Of a stretch of DNA of 64,000 nt, positions 2,942 through 17,801 are shown piece by piece. Position 1 is the first letter of the stretch. The number at the start of each line of letters is the position of its first letter. This DNA comes from Silvibacterium bohemicum. GTDB lineage: Bacteria > Acidobacteriota > Terriglobia > Terriglobales > Acidobacteriaceae. The stretch spans positions 620,001 through 684,000 of the forward strand of contig NZ_LBHJ01000020.1 in the NCBI RefSeq assembly GCF_001006305.1, in the 5' to 3' direction. The position numbers and the translations under genes were made by a program. The notes below the pieces were generated by a model that was given only the letters and a program-made list of their open reading frames with translations, was not told where the DNA came from and did not search any database.

Positions 2942-4222
2942 ATGATGGCTGCCGGCTTGGCTCATACCCTCCTGGTTTTTATCGTGGCCATCAGCATTTT
3001 GCTTATGCTGATTCGCCCGCGCGGCATTCCCGAAGTCTACTGGGTCGGCGGTGGCGTTCTGCTGCTCCTCTGCCTGCGATTGATCTCGCTGCGCGTGGCG
3101 GGAAAAGCTGTGGCGGAAGGAACGGATGTCTATCTCTTCCTCATCGGCATGATGCTGCTCTCGGAGCTGGCGAAGGAAAACGGTGTTTTCGATTGGCTTT
3201 CTTCCGTCGCCGTCGGAAGCGCTCGCGGCTCATGTTCACGGCTATTCGCGCTGACCTACGGAATCGGCATTGTGGTGACGGTATGCCTGTCGAACGATGC
3301 GACGGCGGTTGTTCTCACCCCCGCGGTTCTCACCGCGGTGCGCCGCGCGAAGGTCCAACCACTTCCTTATCTCTTCGCGTGCGCGATGATCGCAAATGCG
3401 GCATCCTTCGTTCTGCCTATATCGAATCCGGCGAACCTGGTCGTCTTCCACTCAGCCACGCCTCCTCTTGGACACTGGCTGCTGGCGTTCTTCGTTCCTT
3501 CGCTCGCGTCGATTGCCGTGACCTTCGCGGTGCTGCGATGGTACTTTCGCCGCGATCTGCGCGCGTCGATCGATTGCGAGGTCGAGAAGATCAGACTCAA
3601 TGGAAATGGCCGTCTGGTGCTGGCCGGGCTTGCTCTGGTAATTCTCGTTCTCCTGACCGCGTCGGCGCTTGGCAAGGACCTCGGCCTGCCTACCTGCCTT
3701 GCCGCCGTCGCGATTACCGCTGTGCTCGCTATCAAGAGCCGCCGCAGTCCCTTGAAGCTCGCCAGAGAAATCAGCTGGAGCACATTGGCGCTGGTGGCGG
3801 CGTTGTTTGTCATGGTTCACGCCGTCCAGAGCATCGGAGCGCTGCAACTCGCCCAGCAAGCGCTGGCCGCCGCGCAGAGATTGCCGGCTTCCGTTGCGGC
3901 CTGCTTGATCACATTCGCCGTGGGCATCGGCAACAACCTCGTGAACAATCTGCCGCTGGGGTTGATTGCCGGCGCTGCTCTCACCGCTTCTCATATTCAC
4001 GGCCTAACAACAAATGCGGTGATGATCGGCGTCGACCTGGGACCGAATCTTTCCATTACCGGCTCACTGGCGACAATCCTGTGGCTGATCGCGCTGCGCA
4101 AAGAAAATCTGAATGTAAGTTTTCTGGATTTCCTCAAGACCGGCATCCTCGCGATGCCGGCAGCGTTACTCGCCAGCATCGCCGCGGCAATCGCAATGCA
4201 TGCGATCCTGCCGAACAACTGA
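2942..4222 (+). CDS. ArsB/SLC13-type ion transporter, integral membrane
   Basis: 426 residues with about ten to eleven hydrophobic segments. Two conserved re-entrant motifs stand out: SNDATAVVLTPAVL (about 117-130) and NAASFVLPISNPANLVVF (about 152-169). These match the paired signature of the ArsB/NhaD/SLC13 ion-transporter superfamily. A second symmetric SN-type motif, GIGNNLVNNLPLG, appears near 325. Arsenite efflux would be the textbook role of ArsB, but no arsR, arsC or arsA gene is nearby, so the ion is undetermined and could be another oxyanion or a dicarboxylate. It lies 110 bp after the VWFA gene with its own weak ribosome site. ATG 2945 is an equally possible start. The fold is secure, the substrate is not. 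Confidence 0.82.
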   Translation: MMAAGLAHTLLVFIVAISILLMLIRPRGIPEVYWVGGGVLLLLCLRLISLRVAGKAVAEGTDVYLFLIGMMLLSELAKENGVFDWLSSVAVGSARGSCSRLFALTYGIGIVVTVCLSNDATAVVLTPAVLTAVRRAKVQPLPYLFACAMIANAASFVLPISNPANLVVFHSATPPLGHWLLAFFVPSLASIAVTFAVLRWYFRRDLRASIDCEVEKIRLNGNGRLVLAGLALVILVLLTASALGKDLGLPTCLAAVAITAVLAIKSRRSPLKLAREISWSTLALVAALFVMVHAVQSIGALQLAQQALAAAQRLPASVAACLITFAVGIGNNLVNNLPLGLIAGAALTASHIHGLTTNAVMIGVDLGPNLSITGSLATILWLIALRKENLNVSFLDFLKTGILAMPAALLASIAAAIAMHAILPNN

Positions 4223-4261: not shown

Positions 4262-6604
4262 TTACAAGCTTCCGGCCACGGATGCGGCCTCGGGCTCCGT
4301 CTTTGCAGGCTTCGGAGCGTTCGGCGCGGGATTTAACGGCAGGAATACGCGAAAACAAGTTACATACTTCCCGCAGTTGCTCTGGCTGCGAAAGGTAATT
4401 CGGCCTTCATATTTCTGAACGATGCCCTTGCTGATCCACAAGCCGAGACCGGTCCCTTTGGTCGACTTCGTGCTGAAGAAGGGCTGAAAGAGCTTTCCGG
4501 CATCCTGCGGGCGAATGCCCGTGCCTGTATCAACGATCGAGATGGCAACACCACGGCGGCCGATGGTCTCATCCGTGACCTCTTCCACATGAACCCGCAG
4601 AACGCCGCCCTCGGGCATGGCCTGGATCGCGTTGCCGATCAGGTTGAGGAAGACCTGGCGAAGCTCCACGGGAAATCCATAGATGATGCCATTGGATCGA
4701 TATCGCTTTTGCAATTCGATCCCGCCCGCCTGCAGCGCTCTCAGTTGTAGTTCCAATACGTTGTCGAGGACTTCAGGCAGCGAAACGGGGATAGGCTGTT
4801 TCGACTCGCGATAGAAGCTCAGCGTCTGACGAGTGATGTGCGACGCGCGCTGCAGCTCCTGCTCGGCCAGCGAGGCGTAATATTGCGCTTCGCTATCCAG
4901 GGATGGATGCGTCCGCAACAGATAAAAGGCGTTGGTGATGGCTTCGAGCGGGTTATTGATTTCGTGGGCGATGATTCCAGCCATGCGGCCCATCGCCGCC
5001 AGCTTCTCGGCCTGACGCAGCGCCTCTTCCGCACGAAGCTCGCCGGTAATGTCGCGATTGATCTCCAGCACCACGTTGGTTTCGCGATCGAAGGCTTTGC
5101 GGCAAGCCACAACCACTTCGCGATCATCGCTGGTGCGCTGGATCAAGTTGCCGTGCCATGAGCCTTCCGTATGGAGAATGTGCTCGATCTCCTCGCGTGG
5201 AACCGGAAAGACCGTCTTCAGCAGCTGATGCAAGTCTTGTCCGAGAGCATCGTTCCGCTTCCAGCCATAAAAAGTCTCGGCCCCGGAACTCCAATAACGA
5301 ATCGCGCCTTGCAGATCGCGCACCATGATTGCTTCGGAGGCCAGTTCGAGCAATTCCGCCCGCTGCCGCAAAGTATCCTCGAGGCGCTTTCTGTGGGTCA
5401 CATCGAAAAAGACACCAACCGACCCGCGTACATTGCCGGACTCTTCGAGAAGAGGGCTGGCGCTGGCAAACACATGCTTGTTGGACCCATCGTCGCCGCG
5501 CAGCTGCATCTCTGCATTCATCACAGGCAAACCCGTATGGATGGCCTCGTCCATGAATGAGAAGGGTGATTGATTTTGCTTCAAAGCCTTTGCGGCGTTT
5601 CGAGCCGCAGGCAGAGAGACGTTTTCTTTGCCGAAGATATCCCCGAAGGCAGGATTGGTGGTGACGTTTGAGAACTTCGCATCGGTCGATATGGCCACAC
5701 CGACGGGCAGCACCTGCATGATGGTTTCGAGCTCCGTCACCCTCTGCTCCAACTGGCGATTGAGCGTACGGATTTTTTCCTCGGCAATAATCTGCGATGT
5801 CACATCGGTGGCCGTGCCGAACCAGCGCGCCACCTGGCCCTGAACATCCAGGATAGGCACTGCACGCGCCAGAAACCAGCGATACTCGTCCAGGTGATTG
5901 CGCAGAGGAAATGTATCCTCCCACAAATCTCCGGTGCCCATGGCGCTTTTTATCCCGGCTTGAATCCGATCGGCGTGCTCGGGGTGCCGCAGATGCACCC
6001 AGCCAGTTTCTTGCAACGACTCCGTCGTCGCTCCTGCGAAGTCGCACCACCGCTGGTTGTACCAGAAAGCATTGCCGTCGGCATCGGCCATCCATGCGAG
6101 CTGAGGGATGCTGTTCGCCAGGGTGCGGAACTGCGCCTCGCTCTGTCTAAGCTCTTCGGTTCGTTCTTCAACGCGCTGTTCGAGTTGATTGTTCAGCCGC
6201 TCCAACAGGCGCGTTTTGCGATGCAGTTCGACGAATACACCAATCTTGGCTCGCAAGACTTCAGGAACCACGGGAACCGAGATGTAGTCCACCGCTCCGC
6301 GCCGGTAGCCGTTGATGGTGTCCGATTCGGAGAGATGCACGCCGGAGATGAAGATAATCGCCGTCTTCTGGAAGCGCGGATGTTGCCGGATCATCTCCGC
6401 CAGCTCGAAGCCATCGAGCTCCGGCATGCTCACATCCATCAACACCACGCCGATGTCCGTCCGCAGCAGGATCTCAAGGGCTTCCCGCGCGGAGGCCGCC
6501 TGGATGAGGTTCTCCCCCAGCTCACCGAGAATTGCTTCATAGGTCAGCAGCTTCCCAGGCTGATCGTCGACCATCAGGATATTGACTTTTTCGTGCAACG
6601 TCAT
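4262..6604 (-). CDS. Hybrid sensor kinase: receiver - PAS x3 - HisKA - HATPase, cytoplasmic
   Basis: 780 residues from ATG 6604. This ATG follows AGAAGG at 8 nt and begins 15 nt after the stop of the upstream kinase. The reading frame is open to a GTG at 6634, but that would overlap the neighbour and lacks a ribosome site. Domains in order: a receiver (about 5-120, phospho-acceptor D57 in VLMDVSM); a short coiled coil; PAS domains near 160-280, 300-400 and 415-530; HisKA with His in IAHEINNP (about 560); and HATPase with N, G1 (DTGTG) and G2 (KGTGLGL) boxes near the end. The receiver lacks the usual switch Lys: DYISVPVVP stands where DYLxKP is expected. There is no membrane segment. Co-transcribed with the poly-HAMP kinase, it may receive phosphate from it or sense redox or small ligands through its PAS domains. 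Confidence 0.88.
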   Translation of the reverse strand: MTLHEKVNILMVDDQPGKLLTYEAILGELGENLIQAASAREALEILLRTDIGVVLMDVSMPELDGFELAEMIRQHPRFQKTAIIFISGVHLSESDTINGYRRGAVDYISVPVVPEVLRAKIGVFVELHRKTRLLERLNNQLEQRVEERTEELRQSEAQFRTLANSIPQLAWMADADGNAFWYNQRWCDFAGATTESLQETGWVHLRHPEHADRIQAGIKSAMGTGDLWEDTFPLRNHLDEYRWFLARAVPILDVQGQVARWFGTATDVTSQIIAEEKIRTLNRQLEQRVTELETIMQVLPVGVAISTDAKFSNVTTNPAFGDIFGKENVSLPAARNAAKALKQNQSPFSFMDEAIHTGLPVMNAEMQLRGDDGSNKHVFASASPLLEESGNVRGSVGVFFDVTHRKRLEDTLRQRAELLELASEAIMVRDLQGAIRYWSSGAETFYGWKRNDALGQDLHQLLKTVFPVPREEIEHILHTEGSWHGNLIQRTSDDREVVVACRKAFDRETNVVLEINRDITGELRAEEALRQAEKLAAMGRMAGIIAHEINNPLEAITNAFYLLRTHPSLDSEAQYYASLAEQELQRASHITRQTLSFYRESKQPIPVSLPEVLDNVLELQLRALQAGGIELQKRYRSNGIIYGFPVELRQVFLNLIGNAIQAMPEGGVLRVHVEEVTDETIGRRGVAISIVDTGTGIRPQDAGKLFQPFFSTKSTKGTGLGLWISKGIVQKYEGRITFRSQSNCGKYVTCFRVFLPLNPAPNAPKPAKTEPEAASVAGSL

Positions 6605-6618
6605 AGCCCAGACCTTCT

Positions 6619-9600
6619 CTAGCGGTGCAGCCACATGCGAAGTGCAGACAGCAATTGTTCAGTATTTACCGGCTTGGCAAGATACTCCGACGCACCGGCT
6701 TCAAGACATTTCTCGCGGTCGCCCTTCATGGCCTTGGCTGTCAAAGCAATGATGGGAAGCCGCCGCAAAGAAGCATTTTGACGGATCACCTGCATCGTCT
6801 CGTAACCATCCATCTCCGGCATCATGATATCCATCAGTACGATCGCCAAATCGGGTGTGGAATCTATTGTGGCAATAGCTTCGCGCCCGGTGCCCGCCGT
6901 GAGCACGGTCATGCCGCGCCGCTCAAGGACACTGCTCAGCGCGAAGATATTCCGGATGTCGTCGTCCACGACCAGCACCTTGCGGCCCACCAGCGCTTCG
7001 TCCGATTCATGCAGCTTGTCGAGCATCCGCTGCTTCTCGACGGGCAGATCGGCGACGACGCGATGGAGGAACAACGCGGTCTCGTCGAGCAGGCGCTCTG
7101 GCGATTCTACGTCCTTGACCACCACGCTGCGCGCCAGCGTGTGCAGCTGCGCATCCTCTTCGTGGGTCAGGTCTCTACCGGTAAATACTACGACGGGAAG
7201 ATCCCGCAGCTCTGCTTTCTTGCCTAACTCCTCAAGAACTTCGAAGCCGGTCATATCGGGGAGCCGCAGATCGAGAACCACGCAGTCGTACGTTTCCTTT
7301 TCCAAAATACGCAGCGCCTCGGCTCCTGAGCCGGCCGCCTCGACATCGATGTCTTCATGCCATAGCAATTCGCGGATTGCCATCTGTTCGGTGGCGTTGT
7401 CTTCGACCACCAGCAGTCGCTTGCGCAAACGCTGCGAGTATTTCTGAATGCGCATCAGAGCCGCGTCCAGCTCGTCCGCTGAAGTGGGCTTGGTGACGAA
7501 GGCAAATGCGCCTCTCGACAGACCGTGGTGCCGGTCGTCGTCGAGCGTCAGAATCTGCACCGGAATATGCCGGGTCTTCAAATCCTGTTTGAGATGATTC
7601 AACACCGTCCAGCCCAGCATATCGGGCAGGAAGACATCGAGCGATATGGCCGACGGATGATATTCCGCCGCCAGCGACAGAGCCTCTGCGCCGGTCATCG
7701 CAACCAGCACCTTGAAGCCTTTGTCGCGCGAAAGATCGCAAAGCATCCGCGCATAATGGGGATCGTCTTCGACGATCAACAGAACGGCATCGCCTTCCTG
7801 CAGCTGGTCGCGGTCATCTTCCACGCGTGTATCCTTCTCGACCGCGGCGGTGCTCGCCAGCAATGCGGGAACGACGGAGTAATTGCTTTTCTCAGGCCGC
7901 GGGACATTCGGCACAACCGGCCCGACATACGTCTGTGGCAGGAAGAGTGTAAACGCGCTGCCTTTGCCGGGCGTACTGACGAGTTGGATCTCGCCGCCCA
8001 GCAGGCTGGCGAGTTCGCGGCTGATGGCAAGTCCCAGACCGGTGCCGCCATATTTGCGGCTGGTGCCTGCGTCCGCCTGTTGAAAGGCCTCGAAGATGAT
8101 GCGCTGTTTCTCGGCGGGAATGCCGATGCCAGTGTCCGTGACTTCGAACGCGATGACGGAAGCAGCGCCGCTTAGAATCGGATGGTCGGGGCTCCAGCCA
8201 CCTTGCACTCGCGATAGCGAAAGCCGTACGGTGCCCTGATCGGTGAACTTGAAGGCGTTGGAGAGCAGGTTCTTGAGGACCTGCTGCAGACGCTTGGAGT
8301 CGGTGACCAGGCTGCGACCCAGACGGGCATCGCTCTTGACATCGAAGATAACCTTGCGATTCTCGGCTTCGTGACGGAAGGGACGCGAGACGGTATCGAG
8401 AAGGCTGGCGAAGAAGATCTCTTCAGCCTCGACCGAGACCGTGCCGGATTCGATCTTCGAAAGATCGAGAATGTCGCTGATGAGATTGAGAAGGTCGGTG
8501 CCGGCGCCGTGAATGGTGCGCGCAAACTCCACCTGCTTGGGAGTGAGATTGCCGTCGGGATTTTCCGCGAGCTGCTGGCCCAGCACCAGGATGCTGTTGA
8601 GCGGCGTGCGCAGCTCGTGAGACATGTTGGCCAGGAACTCCGACTTGTATTTCGAGGTGAGCGCCAGCTCCTTGGCTTTGGCCTCGAGCGCACGACGCGC
8701 CTGTTCGATCTCCTGATTCTTGCGTTCGACTTCGGAGTTCTGCTCGGCCAACTGCTGCGCCTTTTGCGCAAGCTGCTCGTTGGTCTGCTGCAATTCCTTC
8801 TGCTGCATCTGCAGCTCGATGGCGAGCTGCTGCGATTGCTTCAACAGGCCCTCGGTCTGCATCGTGGCCTCGATCGAATTCAGCACGATGCCGATGCTGG
8901 CCGTGAGCTGCTCAAGGAACGCGAGATGCGAGGCGGTAAACGCGCTCAGAGTCGCGAGCTCGATGACCGCCTTCACCCGGTCTTCGAAGAGCACGGGCAG
9001 CACGATCACGTTGCGCGGTATGGATTCGAACAACCCGGAGCGGATGGGCACGGCCTGCGCAGGAAGCTCGGTGATCAGCATGCGGTTCTTCTCGGTCGCG
9101 CATTGTCCTACAAGACCCTCGCCCGCTTTGATCTCCAGCGGATGCCCTTCCGTGGAATTGGCGAAGGTGGAGAGCAGCATCAGCTTTCCGGACTCTTCGC
9201 TTTCCATCTGGTAGATCACGCCCTGCTGCGCGTTGACCAGCGGAGCAAGCTCGGAGAGCAGCATGCGTCCCACGGTGCCCAGATCGCGCTGCCCCTGCAA
9301 CATGCCGGTAAAGCGGGCCAGGTTGGTCTTCAGCCAATCCTGTTCCGTGTTGCGATCGGTCGTGAGCCGGAGGTTATCAATCATCGTATTGATGTTGTCC
9401 TTCAGCTCCGCCACTTCGCCGCGCGCTTCCACCTGAATGGAGCGCGTGAGATCGCCCTTGGTCACGGCGGTCGCAACTTCGGCGATGGCGCGCACCTGGT
9501 TGGTGAGGTTATCGGCGAGCAGGTTCACATTGCCGGTCAGATCCTTCCAGGTTCCGGCAGCTCCGGGAACGTTGGCCTGACCGCCGAGGCGGCCTTCGAC

Positions 9601-12600
9601 ACCGACTTCACGCGCCACCGTCGTCACCTGATCGGCGAAGGTGGCCAGCGTGTCGGTCATATTGTTGATGGTCTCGGCGAGCGCCGCGACCTCGCCCTTT
9701 GCATTCACGGTGAGCTTCTGCGTGAGATCGCCGTTGGCGACGGCCGTCACCACCTTGACGATGCCGCGCACCTGCTCGGTAAGGTTGGCGGCCATGACGT
9801 TGACGTTGTCGGTAAGATCTTTCCAGGTTCCGGCTACTCCCGGCACCTGCGCCTGACCGCCGAGTTTTCCGTCGGTGCCGACTTCACGGGCCACGCGTGT
9901 CACTTCTGCAGCGAAGGCGTTGAGCTGATCCACCATGGTGTTGATGGTGTTCTTCAGCTCCAGAATTTCGCCCTTCACGTCCACCGTGATCTTGCGCGAG
10001 AGATCGCCGCGAGCGACGGCGGTCGTCACTTCGGCGATATTGCGCACCTGGCCGGTGAGATTGCCGGCCATCGCGTTGACGGAGTCGGTTAAATCCTTCC
10101 ACGTACCCGCGACACCAGGGACGTTGGCCTGTCCGCCGAGACGGCCTTCGGAGCCCACTTCGCGCGCCACGCGCGTTACTTCGGCGGCGAAGGAGCGCAG
10201 CTGCTCGACCATGGTGTTGAGCGTTTCTTTGAGCTGCAGAATTTCGCCGCGCACATCGACGGTGATTTTCTTCGAGAGATCGCCGTTGGCGATAGCGGTC
10301 GCCACCTCGGCAATGTTGCGCACCTGGCCCGTCAGGTTGCTGGCCATGAAGTTGACGTTGTCGGTCAGATCCTTCCAGGTTCCGGCCACTCCGGGCACCT
10401 GAGCCTGGCCGCCGAGCTTACCGTCAGTGCCTACTTCGCGGGCGACGCGCGTCACTTCACCGGCGAAGGCGTTGAGCTGATCCACCATGGTGTTGATGGT
10501 GTTTTTCAGCTCCAGAATTTCGCCCTTCACGTCCACCGTGATCTTGCGCGAGAGATCGCCGCGGGCCACAGCCGTGGTCACTTCGGCGATGTTGCGGACC
10601 TGCGCCGTAAGATTGCCGGCCATGGAGTTCACGGAATCGGTCAAATCTTTCCACGTACCGGCAACGCCCGGCACGTTCGCCTGTCCGCCCAGCTTGCCGT
10701 CCGTACCTACTTCGCGGGCCACGCGCGTTACTTCGCCGGCGAAGCGGTTCAGCTGATCCACCATCGTATTAATGGTGTCCTTCAGCAGCAGAATTTCGCC
10801 GCTGACATTCACCGTGATCTTCTTCGAGAGATCGCCTGTCGCAATGGCCGTCGAAACTTCCGCGATGTTGCGGACTTGTCCCGTGAGATTGCTGGCCATG
10901 GAGTTGACGGAGTCAGTCAGGTCCTTCCACGTACCCGCGACACCCGGCACCTGCGCCTGACCGCCGAGCTTGCCGTCCGTGCCCACTTCGCGAGCCACTC
11001 GCGTCACTTCGCCAGCGAAAGCGTTGAGCTGATCCACCATCGTATTGATGGTGTCCTTCAGCTCCAGGATTTCGCCTTTCACGTCCACCGTGATCTTGCG
11101 CGACAAGTCACCGCGAGCCACGGCTGTAGCCACTTCGGCGATGTTACGCACCTGGGCCGTGAGATTGCCGGCCATGAAGTTGACGTTGTCGGTCAGATCC
11201 TTCCAGGTTCCGGCGACGCCCGGCACCTGCGCCTGGCCGCCGAGCTTGCCGTCGGTGCCGACTTCGCGGGCCACGCGCGTCACTTCGCCCGCGAAGGCGT
11301 TGAGCTGATCCACCATCGTATTGATGGTGTTTTTCAGCTCCAGAATTTCGCCCTTCACATCCACCGTGATCTTGCGCGAGAGATCGCCGCGGGCTACGGC
11401 GGTCGTCACCTCGGCGATGTTACGGACCTGCGCCGTCAGATTGCCGGCCATCGAGTTGACGGAGTCGGTGAGATCTTTCCAGGTTCCGGCTACTCCCGGC
11501 ACGTTGGCCTGGCCACCTAACCGTCCTTCCGTGCCCACTTCGCGGGCCACGCGCGTCACTTCGCCGGCGAAGCGGTTCAGCTGATCCACCATCGTGTTCA
11601 GCGTTTCTTTGAGCTGGAGAATTTCGCCGCGAACGTCGACCGTGATTTTGCGTGAGAGGTCGCCGTTGGCGATAGCCGTTGCCACCTCGGCGATGTTGCG
11701 GACCTGGCCGGTCAGATTGCTGGCCATGAAGTTGACGTTATCGGTGAGATCCTTCCACGTTCCGGCCACGCCCGGCACGCTCGCCTGTCCGCCCAGCTTG
11801 CCTTCTGTGCCGACTTCGCGGGCTACGCGCGTCACTTCGCCGGCGAATGCGTTCAGCTGATCCACCATCGTATTAATGGTGTCCTTCAGCTCCAGAATTT
11901 CGCCCTTCACGTCTACCGTGATCTTGCGTGACAAGTCGCCGCGGGCGACGGCCGTGGTCACCTCGGCGATGTTGCGGACCTGCGCCGTCAGGTTTCCGGC
12001 CATGGCATTGACGGAATCAGTGAGATCTTTCCAGGTGCCGGCCACGCCGGGCACCACCGCCTGGCCGCCCAGCTTGCCATCGGTGCCGACCTCGCGAGCG
12101 ACGCGCGTCACTTCCGATGCAAACGACCGCAGCTGGTCGACCATGGTGTTGATGGCCTCCTTCAGCTGAAGAATTTCGCCGCGCACGTCGACCGTGATCT
12201 TGCGCGAGAGATCGCCGCTGGCCACGGCGGTCGCCACCTCGGCGATGTTGCGAACCTGGCCAGTAAGGTTGCTGGCCATCGAGTTGACGGAATCGGTGAG
12301 ATCTTTCCACGTTCCCGCAACGCCGGGAACGACGGCCTGACCGCCCAGCTTGCCGTCCGTGCCCACTTCGCGGGCCACGCGCGTCACCTCGGCGGTAAAG
12401 ACACCGAGCTGGTGAATCATGGTGTTGACGATGTTGGCGGCGCGAAGGAATTCGCCTTCGAGCGGACGGCCATCCACATCCAACCGCACGGTCTGGGTCA
12501 GATTGCCCTGGGCCACGGCAGCGATGGCTCGCGTGACCTCATTCGTCGGCCGCAGCAGGTCCTCGACCAGGGTGTTGACCGAGACTTCCATCTCGTCCCA

Positions 12601-12912
12601 GGCGCCACTGCGCTTCTGAATGCGCATCCGCTCGCGGGTTTTTCCCTCTTTGCCGACGGTCTGGCCAACCCTCTTGAGCTCGAAGGCCATCTGTTCGTTG
12701 GCAGAGATGATCTCGTTGAAATAATCGGCGATTTTGCCCGGCAGCCCGGTCCACGAAACCGGCAATCTGGCACTGAAATCGCCGTCCTTCATGGTCTGAA
12801 GCCCCTGAAGAATGACGGCCAGGGTCTCCGATTCCAGGCTCTCAACACCATTCCGAGAGCGGTTTTTACGCACCGGTCCCTCGCTAACCGAGGGTTGCGT
12901 GGTCGTCGCCAT
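6619..12912 (-). CDS. Giant soluble poly-HAMP hybrid histidine kinase with GAF and three receivers
   Basis: 2097 residues. ATG 12912 is preceded by AGGAG at 11 nt. Order: a helical N-terminus (1-115); a first HAMP (about 117-198); eleven 92-residue HAMP units (199-1210), each starting [11 protein letters not shown] (about 1225-1375); a Gln/Glu-rich coiled coil (about 1380-1460); HisKA with [10 protein letters not shown]; HATPase with DTGIGIP and GGTGLGLA; and three receivers ending at the C-terminus, with acceptors in [16 protein letters not shown] and VLMDIMMP. No transmembrane stretch is visible. The architecture resembles fungal group III (Nik1/Os-1) kinases, which sense osmotic or wall stress through HAMP chains, but is longer and adds GAF and two extra receivers. 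The stimulus is unknown. The second hybrid kinase follows 15 nt downstream and is probably its partner. Confidence 0.93.
9283..12318 (-). repeat. Eleven tandem 276-bp units encoding the 92-residue HAMP repeat
   Basis: Each unit runs from the codons for AGTWKDLT to just before the next copy. Nine units are nearly identical in protein; the last two (nearest the GAF domain) are divergent. Two flavours alternate: one reads [10 protein letters not shown] with a TAIANG or TAVASG turn, the other VKGEILELK with TAVARG. Unit order is A B A B B C B A B, then the two divergent units; C is VSGEILLLK. The close DNA similarity makes the stretch prone to recombination, copy-number change and mis-assembly. 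Confidence 0.95.
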
Positions 12913-13200: not shown

Positions 13201-13902
13201 CTACCGGCCGCCATCATCGTCGTCATCGCCGGGTGCGGCTTTCGAGTCGGACTTTTTCGGCTCCTGCGGCTTCAGCTTTCCGTCCAGAGCCTTCTCTACC
13301 GCGATCTCGAAATCGGGGTCGTCGGGAGCGACGTCCGGGGCGAAGCGAGCCAACACCTTGCCCTCGCGCCCAACGATGAACTTCGTGTAGCTCCAATGCA
13401 CTTCTTCCCCCGGCTTCCCGTCCGGGCTGCCGCCGGTGAGAAAGCCGAATACCGGCAGCGCTTCCTTGCCGCTGACAGCGCTCTTCGCGGTCACCAGAAA
13501 CGTGGCATGCAGATCGTCATGGTAGTGCTTTTGAATCTCGACGTCGGAACCGGGCTCGCCTTTGCCGAAATCATTCGACGGAACGGCGATCACCGCCAGA
13601 CCCTTATCCTTATATTGATCCTGCAGCTTATTTAGAGCTTCGATCTGGCCGCTGAACATGGAGTCGCTGGCCACATTCACGACCAGCACGACCTTGCCCT
13701 TATAAGTAGACAGCGGGATTTCCTTACCGCCGCCATCCACCAGGGAAAAGCTGCTCAGCGTCTGTTCGGGATGCTTGGCATGATCGGGATTTTCCGCAGG
13801 AAGCGCAGCAGCCGCGGACCACAACAAAGCGAGCGAGAGGAAGACTCTTGTTGCGTTTCCAAATCGACTCGCGAATGTTGTCCTGATGAGACGCACTGCC
13901 AA
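13201..13902 (-). CDS. Secreted glutathione-peroxidase-fold protein lacking all cysteines
   Basis: 233 residues from TTG 13902. GTG 13896 is a credible alternative, with GAAGAGG about 10 nt upstream. A hydrophobic stretch at about 20-36 followed by LPA suggests export. The fold matches the glutathione peroxidase family: VVLVVNVAS, VPSNDFGKGEPG, LPVFGFL and HWSYTKFIVGREGKV all align with family blocks. The catalytic tetrad is lost: the peroxidatic Cys/Sec position is S81, Gln becomes G115, Asn becomes S171, and only W170 remains. The usual PCNQF block reads PSNDF. No cysteine exists anywhere in the protein, so thiol peroxidase chemistry is ruled out. The tail is acidic (five Asp near the end). 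A binding, chaperone or structural role is possible. It stands alone between the kinase pair and a TonB receptor. Confidence 0.85.
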   Translation of the reverse strand: MAVRLIRTTFASRFGNATRVFLSLALLWSAAAALPAENPDHAKHPEQTLSSFSLVDGGGKEIPLSTYKGKVVLVVNVASDSMFSGQIEALNKLQDQYKDKGLAVIAVPSNDFGKGEPGSDVEIQKHYHDDLHATFLVTAKSAVSGKEALPVFGFLTGGSPDGKPGEEVHWSYTKFIVGREGKVLARFAPDVAPDDPDFEIAVEKALDGKLKPQEPKKSDSKAAPGDDDDDGGR

Positions 13903-14045: not shown

Positions 14046-17000
14046 TCAGAAGCTATAGCGAAGGGAGAACTGCATGCGCCGCCCCTGCGTGAGCAAAGGA
14101 GAAGCGTAGTCTCCGAAGGAGCTCGGGCCGCCGAAGGGATCGCTCTGCACGGTATTCGGATCGAATTTCACCTGGTTGAAGGTGTTGAATACCTCGGCCG
14201 CAAACTTGACCTGGTGGTGCTCCGCGATGCGAAAGACCTTCGCCATGCCGGTGTCGACACTGGAGTAGCCGTCGCCGCGGAAGAAATTACGCTGACCGGT
14301 CTCTCCAGGATAAGGAGGACGGATGGACGCAATGGCCTGGGGCTGATTCTTGAACGCGTTCGGCTGACCATCCTGCGAGTTGGGCTGATGCCCTCCGACC
14401 GCAATTTTGGCGGTGGCCACGTCCCAGCTCTGATCACTCCAGTCGGTTCCCCAGCCAAGGCCATCGATGGCACTGAAGGGCAAACCGCCGGTCCAGTGAA
14501 CTAACCCGTTGAACGTCCAGTTATTGATGAAGGCGTTGATCCAGCCATTCACGCCGTTGCCCACCGCGCGTCCTCGTCCAAAGGGCAGCTCATAGTCGAT
14601 GTTGCCGGTAACCGAATGGCGCACATCGAAGTCCGATGGCCCGTAATTCCCCCGCGGATTATAGATATTGATGATCTGGCTGAAAGACTTCGAGCCTGAT
14701 GTCGCGGTGCGCTCCGCATCCGAACCCAGATCCAGTGATTTCGAAAATGTGTAATACGCATCGAACTCAAAGCCATGCTTCGCCGGATGATGAACCGAGA
14801 CCTGCAGTCCGTTGTAGCTGCTGGTGCCGCTCGAAGACCACGCGTAGAGCGAGGCATACTGCGGATCGAAGTAGCGGAAGAGCTGGCCATTCGGAGCACC
14901 GGGAGCGTAGCCGAGATCGAGATCGTAAAGACCCGCCGTCTCGTTGCCGCGGAATGGGAAAATCTGCGATTCGTAGATGCACTGTGTATTGCTGCTGCCG
15001 TCAGTGCATCCGGTGGCCGCCAGCGGGAACATGTCATCCCAGTACTGGACGTTCGGGACCGCCGAGACCGGCGTGTTTTGATCCACCAGCTTGGCCAGCT
15101 TGGTCGCGGCCGAGAAGTAATCGCCGCCGCCCTTGGGATCGACAAGATCGAGGGGCGTGGCCAGATCGCGCATCTGCAAAAGCCTGCGGCCCAGACGCCC
15201 AGTATAAGTAAGCTGCAGCGTATTGCCGCCGGCGAACTCGCGCTCGATGGAGAAATCGAAGACGTGCGAGTACGGCGTCTTCAGGGTTCCATCGATGCCC
15301 CACGCCAGGGAGAGGTTATTGCCCGGCGTTACAGGGAACTGCCCAGTGGAAGCGATGGGAGGAATGATCGATGTGGGAGGGTTGTTAAATGTGGTGAAGC
15401 GCGGCGCTGTATCTACACTCTGATCGACACCGTTCTCAGCATCGGTCGAGAGACCGAACGCGCCTTCCTGATCGAAGGCATCGATTACACCTTCGCCGAA
15501 GTGGTCAAAGTACAGGCCGTAGCCTCCGCGAATTGAAGTCTTGCCATCGCCGCCAAACAGCTTCTCCCAGATCCCTGTCCCGGACGTGTTCGGAGAGAAG
15601 GCAAACGACACGCGCGGCGCGAGGTCGAGCTTATCCATCGACCATAAGCCGGGCTGGTTGTTCGCCTTGCCCGCAGGAACAAACGAGAAATCAGGCTGGA
15701 CGGTTTCGCCTAGCTTCATTGCCGCCGCACGGGTAGCGAACCACTCCCCCAGATTTACATTGGGACGGACCTCTTGTCCGTCTCTTTCATACGGAACCTG
15801 GAGCAAGGTGTGACGAATTCCATAGGTGAGGGTAAGGTTCGATTTCGCCTTCCAGCTGTCCTGCAGATAGTACTCGACTTCGTTCGAGAAATAATGCCGG
15901 TTGGTCCACTGCCCTGGAGGAAGCGGATTAAGATTGTTTCCGGCTACCTGATAGTTTAGAAATTCCGTGGCATGCGTGATCAGGCCCGTGATGTCGGCAA
16001 TTGCGCGGTTATATGCGGTGTAGAAGCTCTGCGACACGGCTGGGAGATTAAACGCGCCAGGATCGAGGCTGGTTCCCTGCCCTGCAATGCTACCGATGGT
16101 CAAAAAGTCATAGGTGACGTTTGCAGAAGTAAACAGAGTGGCATCGCTTTGGCGGTTGTTGAAGATCGCGCGATAATTTCCGCCGAACTGGAAGGTGTGG
16201 TTGCCCCTGTTCCAGGTCAGGTCGTCGATAACATTGTGCACAGGCAGCGAGACGATCTGCGAAGTATCGGTCGTCGGCGTCAGCGAAGTGATGGAGCCAA
16301 ACGTTACATAGTTAGAGTTGGTCGCGCCGCGATCTGCAAAGCCCTCGCGAATGAATCCATAACGAACGTTGTTGACAAGCGAGCTAGAGATACTCCAGAC
16401 ATCTCCCGCTGCGATTCCCTTGTTATTCGAGTAAAGCTCCGATGTTGGCGAACCTCCGGGAAACTGCTCTGGCGACAGAACATTGTCGCCCTGAAGATTG
16501 CCGCGAACAAAGAGCCGGTGCTTGCTGTTGAGCGCATAGTCGAGCTTCACGATGAGGGTGTTCAACGACTGCGGTGCCGGCGAAGCAAAGCTGTATTGCT
16601 GCTCGTTGTAACCGTCGCCGAGGCCGCCGGCGTTGATATTCGGCTGCGGATACATGTTCAAATACTGGAGCACAGCAGAATTGACGCCGGCCCCGAGCGG
16701 GCAGGTGCCATTGCCGGCGCAGGAGGGGTCCATGCTGGCGATCTGCGCAGGGTTCAGAGTAGTAAGCGAGTTAGATGAATTGATATAGGAGAGCAGTCCC
16801 TGCCGAAATGCAGTACTCGGAACTGTATTCGTAATCTGCGAGTCCTCTGCAAGCTTTTGCCCCTCATAAGTAAAAAAGTAGAACAGCTTGTCCTTGAGGA
16901 TCGGGCCGCCAACTGAACCACCGAAAGTGTGGCGAAGAAACTTGGGTGGAATATTAGGCTGCCCAGCCGTAGTTTCCGCCTCTTTGTTGAACCAATCGTT

Positions 17001-17801
17001 GGCGACAGTATTTGTCGGACGGTAATACTCATAGAGGCTGCCGTGAATACTGTTGGTTCCGCTGCGTGTCACCAGCGACACCTGCGCTCCGGAAGATCGC
17101 CCCGAATCGGCATTCGCGTTGGTGGTCACAACACGAAATTCGTCCACGGAATCGCGCGTGGAACGCAGCACGCCGGTGAAGGCATATCCCTTGCTCTGCG
17201 TGTTGTCGTCCAGTCCATCAAGGGTGAAGTTCGTCTGGTCGGAACGAGCGCCGTCAACTGCGCCGCTGCGGCTGTCGGCATCCTGCTGCGTCGTCGATTG
17301 GTCTCCGAGAAAAAGGACTCCAGCCTGGAGACTGAGCAGATCGAGCACGTTGTTGCCTTCAAAGGGCAGGCTCTGAATCTGCGCGTTGTTGAAGGGCGTT
17401 CCGATGGTGGCATCGGTGGTGTTCAGCGCCGCTGCGTCCGCGCTTACCTCAACGATGGTGTTGGTGCTGGTGATGGCCATCTTCAGCTCGAGAGTGACTG
17501 GCTGGTTTACCAGCAGCTCCAGCCGTCGCTGTTGATCACCGAAGCCGGCGGCTGTGGCCGTTACTACATAAACGCCCGGAGGAATCTGTTCGAAGATATA
17601 GTCGCCATGCTCGTCAGTCAGCTTGACCGCAGTAAAGCCGGTGTCAGGCTTGGCGATCTTGATTTCGGCGCCCGCAATGACCGCACCGCTTGGATCATGA
17701 ACCGTGCCGCGCAACGAGGTTTGCGCAGTCTGGGAAAAACATAGATTCAGGGGAAGAATCGCGAACATCGCGGCATACAAAGCTGACTTCAGTGCTCTCA
17801 T
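14046..17801 (-). CDS. TonB-dependent receptor with carboxypeptidase-regulatory-like domain (Oar type)
   Basis: 1251 residues. ATG 17801 is preceded by GGAGG at 10 nt. Signal peptide at 1-24; a CarboxypepD-regulatory-like beta-sandwich at about 28-110 (TSLRGTVHDPSGAVIAGA, GDYIFEQIPPGVYVVTATA); a plug-like segment at about 120-270 (NVLDLLSLQAGV, NFTLDGLDDN, VSLVTRSGTN); then a long beta-barrel ending in the aromatic-terminated MQFSLRYSF. Such receptors are heavily expanded in Acidobacteria and import large or scarce substrates such as oligosaccharides using TonB energy. No substrate-specific partner is adjacent, so the ligand is unknown. It has its own hairpin-like end and a long upstream region of 540 bp, suggesting independent regulation. 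Confidence 0.93.
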   Translation of the reverse strand: MRALKSALYAAMFAILPLNLCFSQTAQTSLRGTVHDPSGAVIAGAEIKIAKPDTGFTAVKLTDEHGDYIFEQIPPGVYVVTATAAGFGDQQRRLELLVNQPVTLELKMAITSTNTIVEVSADAAALNTTDATIGTPFNNAQIQSLPFEGNNVLDLLSLQAGVLFLGDQSTTQQDADSRSGAVDGARSDQTNFTLDGLDDNTQSKGYAFTGVLRSTRDSVDEFRVVTTNANADSGRSSGAQVSLVTRSGTNSIHGSLYEYYRPTNTVANDWFNKEAETTAGQPNIPPKFLRHTFGGSVGGPILKDKLFYFFTYEGQKLAEDSQITNTVPSTAFRQGLLSYINSSNSLTTLNPAQIASMDPSCAGNGTCPLGAGVNSAVLQYLNMYPQPNINAGGLGDGYNEQQYSFASPAPQSLNTLIVKLDYALNSKHRLFVRGNLQGDNVLSPEQFPGGSPTSELYSNNKGIAAGDVWSISSSLVNNVRYGFIREGFADRGATNSNYVTFGSITSLTPTTDTSQIVSLPVHNVIDDLTWNRGNHTFQFGGNYRAIFNNRQSDATLFTSANVTYDFLTIGSIAGQGTSLDPGAFNLPAVSQSFYTAYNRAIADITGLITHATEFLNYQVAGNNLNPLPPGQWTNRHYFSNEVEYYLQDSWKAKSNLTLTYGIRHTLLQVPYERDGQEVRPNVNLGEWFATRAAAMKLGETVQPDFSFVPAGKANNQPGLWSMDKLDLAPRVSFAFSPNTSGTGIWEKLFGGDGKTSIRGGYGLYFDHFGEGVIDAFDQEGAFGLSTDAENGVDQSVDTAPRFTTFNNPPTSIIPPIASTGQFPVTPGNNLSLAWGIDGTLKTPYSHVFDFSIEREFAGGNTLQLTYTGRLGRRLLQMRDLATPLDLVDPKGGGDYFSAATKLAKLVDQNTPVSAVPNVQYWDDMFPLAATGCTDGSSNTQCIYESQIFPFRGNETAGLYDLDLGYAPGAPNGQLFRYFDPQYASLYAWSSSGTSSYNGLQVSVHHPAKHGFEFDAYYTFSKSLDLGSDAERTATSGSKSFSQIINIYNPRGNYGPSDFDVRHSVTGNIDYELPFGRGRAVGNGVNGWINAFINNWTFNGLVHWTGGLPFSAIDGLGWGTDWSDQSWDVATAKIAVGGHQPNSQDGQPNAFKNQPQAIASIRPPYPGETGQRNFFRGDGYSSVDTGMAKVFRIAEHHQVKFAAEVFNTFNQVKFDPNTVQSDPFGGPSSFGDYASPLLTQGRRMQFSLRYSF

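Follow-up and report, generated by a model that had tools for sequence, protein, structure and literature searches.

Why should a histidine kinase that lacks a membrane segment carry a long chain of similar HAMP-containing units ahead of its catalytic core, and what keeps those units alike? The question is raised by a gene on the minus strand (6619-12912) of a 64,000-nucleotide stretch of Silvibacterium bohemicum DNA (NZ_LBHJ01000020.1, positions 620,001-684,000), to which we refer as the window. The gene is a single open reading frame encoding 2097 amino acids, and its translation and Pfam matches identify it as a poly-HAMP hybrid histidine kinase, which we would assign to the AskB type. What is chiefly new is the extreme degree to which the array of units is constrained, polar residues included. 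In the following sections we describe the architecture of the protein, its partner gene and the distribution of its relatives, and weigh the explanations that might account for the likeness of the units.

Domain layout and spacing of the array

Pfam matches on the kinase comprise 11 HAMP stretches, 12 HAMP_2 stretches, GAF_2, HisKA, HATPase_c and three Response_reg domains. In protein order (all features on the minus strand), a leading HAMP at about residues 29-76 (12685-12828) is followed by a diverged first unit of 97 residues, probably di-HAMP (residues 77-173; 12394-12684), eleven units of 92 residues (residues 174-1185; 9358-12393), a GAF domain (residues 1209-1344; 8881-9288), the HisKA dimerisation and phosphoacceptor domain with the motif SHELRTPLN (residues 1423-1490; 8443-8646), HATPase_c (residues 1538-1660; 7933-8301) and three receivers. 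The bounds of receiver 1 (residues 1703-1825; 7438-7806) and receiver 2 (residues 1826-1945; 7078-7437) are approximate, those of receiver 1 having been set by eye, and its Asp and Lys motifs were also recognised by eye in the translation; receiver 3 (residues 1979-2091; 6640-6978) is the best conserved of the three. A hydropathy scan found no membrane segment in the kinase, the highest 19-residue mean being 1.52. Open reading frame, Pfam and hydropathy thus agree with an earlier description made from the sequence alone (the sequence-only reading) of a soluble 2097-residue kinase with a GAF domain and three receivers.

No N-terminal sensor domain was found by Pfam before the first HAMP. The residues ahead of this HAMP number 28 here, with a median of 34 and a range of -7 to 238 over 78 arrays, as counted from the earliest start codon and with an assumed N-terminal block of 150 residues. 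Within its own genome, the kinase itself is the sole match that covers the array; all other matches stay within the portion of the query that holds the kinase and the receivers (residues 1339-2097), and array paralogues in this genome were therefore rejected. Its neighbours in the window are a glutathione peroxidase-like gene (13201-13902, minus strand), a gene whose large product is an outer-membrane beta-barrel protein bearing a carboxypeptidase-regulatory-like domain (14046-17801, minus strand) and an ArsB/CitM-like transporter gene (2942-4222, plus strand).

The units start at residue 174 and are spaced by exactly 92 residues in all ten steps. Units 1-9 share 79-98% protein identity and 75-88% DNA identity among themselves; protein identity to units 1-9 falls to 70-74% for unit 10, and unit 11 shares 61-66% with every other unit. 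Thus, where a first HAMP and eleven near-identical units had been proposed, the number and the spacing of the units hold, but near-identity does not extend to units 10 and 11. The start of the chain was also drawn differently: hhalign matches the unit profile to residues 77-173 (probability 99.4, with a 5-residue insertion), by which these residues are a diverged twelfth unit, preceded by a further HAMP-like segment. This leading HAMP matches the unit profile weakly (hhalign probability 6.7); it is modelled as helix-connector-helix in the confident part of the structure prediction (block mean pLDDT 81-93). Assembly collapse or expansion is an unlikely source of the count of 11, as eight orthologues, on contigs of other assemblies, also have 11 units.

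The spacing is shared by relatives of the kinase. Among the arrays of the first 107 loci, overlapping loci included, 837 of 839 unit steps measure 92 residues and the other two 93. A link of 97 residues joins the diverged unit to unit 1 in 75 of 79 arrays. The unit length may be locked at 92 because an insertion or deletion would break the helical phase along the rod. The family illustrates how far a HAMP relay can stretch, with at least eleven units in register and almost no insertions or deletions. No paper on 92-residue HAMP repeats or on HAMP repeats of Acidobacteria was found in a limited literature collection.

In divergent poly-HAMP chains, a class after Dunin-Horkawicz and Lupas, AS1-connector-AS2 domains follow each other in tandem. 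An AlphaFold model of the N-terminal part of the kinase fits this pattern in that, along its whole length, every 92 residues hold a pair of long helices and a pair of connectors; however, it is a monomer model with a mean pLDDT of 54 overall, poor over the repeats and confident only for about the first 140 residues, and the two halves of the unit showed no clear likeness when compared as profiles (hhalign probability 5.7 over 13 columns). The finding that the best Pfam HAMP and HAMP_2 stretches occupy the same half of the unit also argues against two HAMPs per unit. Judged by the helix pattern and by published poly-HAMP chains, each 92-residue unit nevertheless probably holds two HAMPs, from which we infer a total of about 25 HAMPs per chain. 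Glycines are conserved in the unit columns of 22 representative arrays.

A Foldseek search with the predicted model gave no significant match. The best probabilities, 0.93 and 0.84, were those of the Aer2 poly-HAMP structures (PDB 4i44 and 4i3m), at E values of 0.74 and 0.64 that are not significant. Aer2 resembles the kinase in having stacked HAMPs with no membrane link, but differs from it in combining 3 + 2 HAMPs with a PAS domain and a chemoreceptor output, as described in the excerpts consulted (PMC3570549). The closest solved structures by sequence are PDB 9trk and 9trj ('histidine kinase,Gcn4p'; E = 7.6e-113 and 3.3e-64, respectively), which are N-terminal arrays of a close homologue fused to GCN4. 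Compared here by sequence alone, 9trk matches residues 22-309 and 9trj residues 22-217, the leading HAMP and the diverged unit included.

Partner gene and described kinases of similar plan

Directly downstream of the kinase gene, at 4262-6604 on the minus strand, lies a partner gene which, by junction sequence and Pfam, encodes a receiver, at least two PAS stretches and a histidine kinase. Its likely start is an ATG at 6604, 14 nt past the kinase stop and with AGAAGG upstream; a GTG at 6634 is also possible. Among 82 loci with at least 1500 bases of downstream sequence, a homologue of this partner adjoins the kinase in 56, the window's included, and is absent from the other 26 by our criterion, which required a start between -200 and +600 bases of the kinase end and frames of at least 300 codons, and which scored frame breaks as absence. 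The Pfam scan of partners covered 26, namely the window's own and 25 of 50; each of them has a receiver, and the kinase part is HisKA in 19, HWE_HK in five and HisKA_3 in two. No Hpt was found at the locus, and the four in the genome lie on other contigs.

The closest described relatives of the kinase are bacterial group III-like kinases, namely AskA and AskB (MXAN_6735) of Myxococcus xanthus and Amb07 of Sorangium cellulosum, as presented in excerpts of the published account (PMC7643160), and this bears out the Nik1-like (group III) plan that had been suggested from the sequence. According to the same excerpts, these are poly-HAMP hybrid kinases without membrane regions, with several receivers and with an array longer than that of NIK1; AskB, in addition, has a further hybrid kinase gene, askC (MXAN_6734), directly downstream, as the partner is here, and its 11 reported repeated pairs of partial HTHs may correspond to array units (PMC7643160). 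They differ from the kinase in belonging to another phylum, and no biosynthetic cluster or developmental programme is known at the locus studied here. The features of the AskB type found in the window are the long N-terminal poly-HAMP array, the absence of a membrane segment, the order HisKA-HATPase_c-three receivers and the downstream partner. By architecture and gene layout, with AskB and AskC known by their published description, we would place the kinase as a new member of this type.

In fungi, the group III switch acts on Ypd1 and the HOG pathway. Fungal group III kinases (Nik1/Bos1/TcsC) share the cytoplasmic plan of poly-HAMP, HisKA, HATPase and receiver; compared by description, however, class III kinases are reported in the excerpts available to have five to six HAMP repeats (PMC3418262), against some 25 estimated here, and the kinase in the window further carries a GAF domain and three receivers and has a partner gene linked to it.

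AskC binds both AskA and AskB in vitro, and receiver 3 of AskA interacts with the receiver of AskC in a two-hybrid assay, according to excerpts of the published account (PMC7643160). By analogy, receiver 3 of the kinase may dock on the partner receiver; its rank as the best conserved receiver fits such docking and is no proof of it. On balance, we favour the reading that the kinase is an AskB-type soluble hybrid histidine kinase with an AskC-type partner, in which a HAMP rod steers the kinase core. Two chains would come together as a parallel rod in which some 25 HAMP bundles are stacked, a dimeric switching rod being suggested by HAMP biology. With no sensor at its free end, the rod itself would be the signalling body and would switch the GAF-HisKA-ATPase core from the kinase to the phosphatase state and back; phosphate would pass on to receivers 1-3, and receiver 3 would dock with the receiver of the neighbouring partner kinase. 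The conserved partner gene suggests a possible destination for the signal, and the family offers a testable system for asking whether long HAMP chains switch cooperatively.

At residue 120 of the partner receiver (numbering starts with the GTG at 6634), the window's partner has Val in place of the usual Lys. Val is found in 45 of 73 aligned partners, the window's included, and Lys in 22; the phospho-Asp is kept in 72 of the 73, some of these rows coming from overlapping loci.

Distribution and unit counts

Relatives of the kinase were ranked by similarity and the best 80 kept from at least 585 confirmed, a choice that is biased towards counts close to 11 and towards high identity of the array. 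By a closed 5' end and an exact kinase motif, 74 arrays were taken as complete; three without the N-terminal link, which look truncated (L049, L071 and L088), were removed to leave 71, of which two run off their locus at the 3' end. Loci that miss the exact kinase motif, for example two from Pseudomonas with six units each, were left out. Some loci overlap (L019 with L024, L020 with L026, and L009, L010, L011 and L013 again inside L155-L158; the contigs of L090 and L148 have the same length), so that array steps and partner-receiver rows are partly non-independent.

In this similarity-ranked sample (the best 80 of at least 585, with further relatives), 40 of the 71 complete arrays have 11 units. 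Arrays of 10, 12, 13 and 14 units number four each, and the remainder have 9 units (six arrays), 6 (five), 8 (three) or 4 (one). An even sample across the phylum gave a match at E 1e-200 in 18 of 199 genomes, the window's genome included, and the 14 arrays that were fully read have 11 units in seven cases, 9 in four, 13 in two and 12 in one. The seven include L152, in which the frame is broken between array and kinase; the other four genomes comprise two with the array cut by contig ends (G194 and G231), one with it broken within the array (G068) and one that was unread (G092). At E 1e-150, a match is present in only 15 of 61 genomes, the window's own included, and the distribution of the gene is therefore patchy.

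The sequence-only reading had named a commonplace, well-studied family of eleven-unit kinases as one finding that would tell against it. Such kinases proved largely commonplace (40 of 71 and seven of 14 arrays in the two samples) but not well studied: AskB-type soluble sensor kinases are widespread but little-studied, and the kinase in the window is no exceptional eleven-unit oddity. Broken frames were seen in two Acidobacteriota loci, within the array in L151 and in the gap between array and kinase in L152, and reflect either a pseudogene or a sequencing error.

Constraint on the array and likeness of its units

We compared eight Acidobacteriota orthologues (L009-L013, L028, L037 and L041) with the window. 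Mean identity is 96.6% for units 1-9 and 97.0% for units 10-11, compared with 84.8% for the kinase domain, 78% for the GAF domain and 78% for the N-terminal HAMPs; receivers 1, 2 and 3 have means of 77%, 67% and 91%, respectively, that of receiver 3 being taken over residues 1976-2097. As the N-terminal HAMPs are no better conserved than the GAF domain, the constraint lies on units 1-11 and not on the whole rod. In every one of the 117 pairs within the five clades compared, identity is higher for the array than for the kinase domain; no pair was dropped, and a lone Pseudomonas pair, in which the kinase motif is absent, gave no row. In the window's clade, median dN is 0.031 for the array and 0.107 for the kinase domain, with dS of 1.36 and 1.70 (dS being usable in 30 of 36 pairs), and in the four clades with usable dS the median dN of the array is 0.18-0.29 of that of the kinase domain, dS being similar in size. 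The relay thus evolves more slowly than the enzyme that it would control.

Among 22 chosen representatives from several phyla, with the last two units of each array dropped beforehand, 63 of the 92 unit columns are at least 90% conserved, 26 of these being polar or Trp/Tyr, and four columns are below 50%. This conservation would seem to exceed what a helix-packing core alone would need. Because the array surpasses the catalytic domain in every clade compared and so many columns are conserved, the rod could be more than a relay, its outer surface being the working part, and rods could bind along their length something common to many phyla, whether other rods, a partner chain or a ubiquitous ligand. 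We offer this only as a tentative and rather doubtful suggestion, and the drawing of the representatives from a similarity-ranked search counts against it.

It is improbable, in our estimate, that the array is a scaffold that binds DNA or the nucleoid. According to excerpts of the published account (PMC7643160), EMSA and pull-down experiments showed binding of AskB to a promoter, the nucleoid serves the di-HAMP receptor FrzCD as a scaffold, and SpoIIID-like matches fall on the repeats here too. However, FrzCD is described, in the excerpts consulted, as having a separate DNA-binding domain beside its HAMPs (PMC12077210), the units of the array are acidic (net charge -1 to -3), and no single stretch matches SpoIIID at E 0.001, the whole-protein score being a sum over the repeats. 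HTH or SpoIIID domains in the repeats were accordingly rejected as a summed-repeat artefact. SpoIIID and other, unrelated Pfam models score on 9358-12393 only through such summing; a similar kind of match was taken as HTH domains in AskA and AskB, in the excerpts available (PMC7643160).

A different account of the likeness of the units, which the sequence-only reading had drawn from their high DNA identity, is that recombination and gene conversion keep homogenising them and leave their copy number variable. Synonymous codons in the same column agree in 61% of cases between units, compared with 48.5% for different columns with the same residue, and this raw likeness within the gene (0.61) is above that of same-position orthologue units (0.46-0.57). 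The best of ten within-gene paralogues also beats the orthologue in DNA in 395 of 792 comparisons, which goes against a reading by selection. These values need to be set against the observation that synonymous sites are mostly scrambled: the excess over the control is 0.12 within the gene and 0.05-0.13 between same-position orthologue units, and the longest identical in-register run between units of the gene is 59 bp. Moreover, the best cross-genome DNA match lies at the same unit position in 589 of 792 comparisons, and the eight orthologues all have 11 units, with the flavour order (see below) nearly kept. As the excess within the gene is about that between orthologues, the units seem to date from the split of these species or from before it, perhaps with some conversion.

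Over the whole family, changes in unit number are seen, with counts of 4-14. In Aerophototrophica crusticola (L075), units 8-9 recur as units 10-11 with one mismatch in 552 bp, which is a recent two-unit gain or an assembly effect, and in a member of the window's own family (L142) there is one extra A-B pair, with 88-89% DNA identity to the neighbours two steps away. Copy number is thus variable over long times, as had been claimed, but fixed at 11 in the eight orthologues, and the companion claim of ongoing recombination finds no support in this gene, given the scrambled synonymous codons and the count and near-order kept among these orthologues. Recent unit duplication or gene conversion as the cause of unit likeness was rejected for this gene on its scrambled synonymous sites and same-position best matches, and we regard continuing homogenisation as quite unlikely. 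Purifying selection on the protein, which would keep the units near-identical, appears from the sequence comparisons to explain their likeness better than recent recombination does.

By the motif at the second connector, the units of this gene have the flavour order A B A B B C B A B D E. Two alternating flavours with one variant had been read from the sequence; of this, a partial alternation stands, with likeness at lag 2 exceeding that at lag 1 (P = 0.044, by permutation test), but the strict order does not, and strict A/B alternation was rejected on the B-B-C in the middle of the array. Uncorrected, the lag test gave P < 0.05 for 24 of 66 arrays; these are related to each other, and 21 of them are 11-unit arrays of Acidobacteriota and Alphaproteobacteria. 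The lag value is positive in 50 of the 66 and negative in Polyangium and several Bacteroidota arrays, Flavobacterium among them; the Nostoc array is nearly all of one flavour by motif (lag test P = 0.076).

The further proposal that the A/B flavours impose packing states which alternate from unit to unit draws on these same lag results, but it is very unlikely to be correct, given the order broken mid-array, the little or no A/B alternation in several phyla, the two-unit block duplication (as in L075) that is a simpler and sufficient source of the alternation, and the scale of the conformer alternation described for Aer2, which in the excerpts consulted is between neighbouring single HAMPs (PMC3570549), two of which each unit probably holds already.

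Towards the kinase end, the penultimate unit is of the D type in 72 of 83 arrays, and the order A-B-D-E closes 53 of 83, as counted by loose motif rules with partial arrays included.
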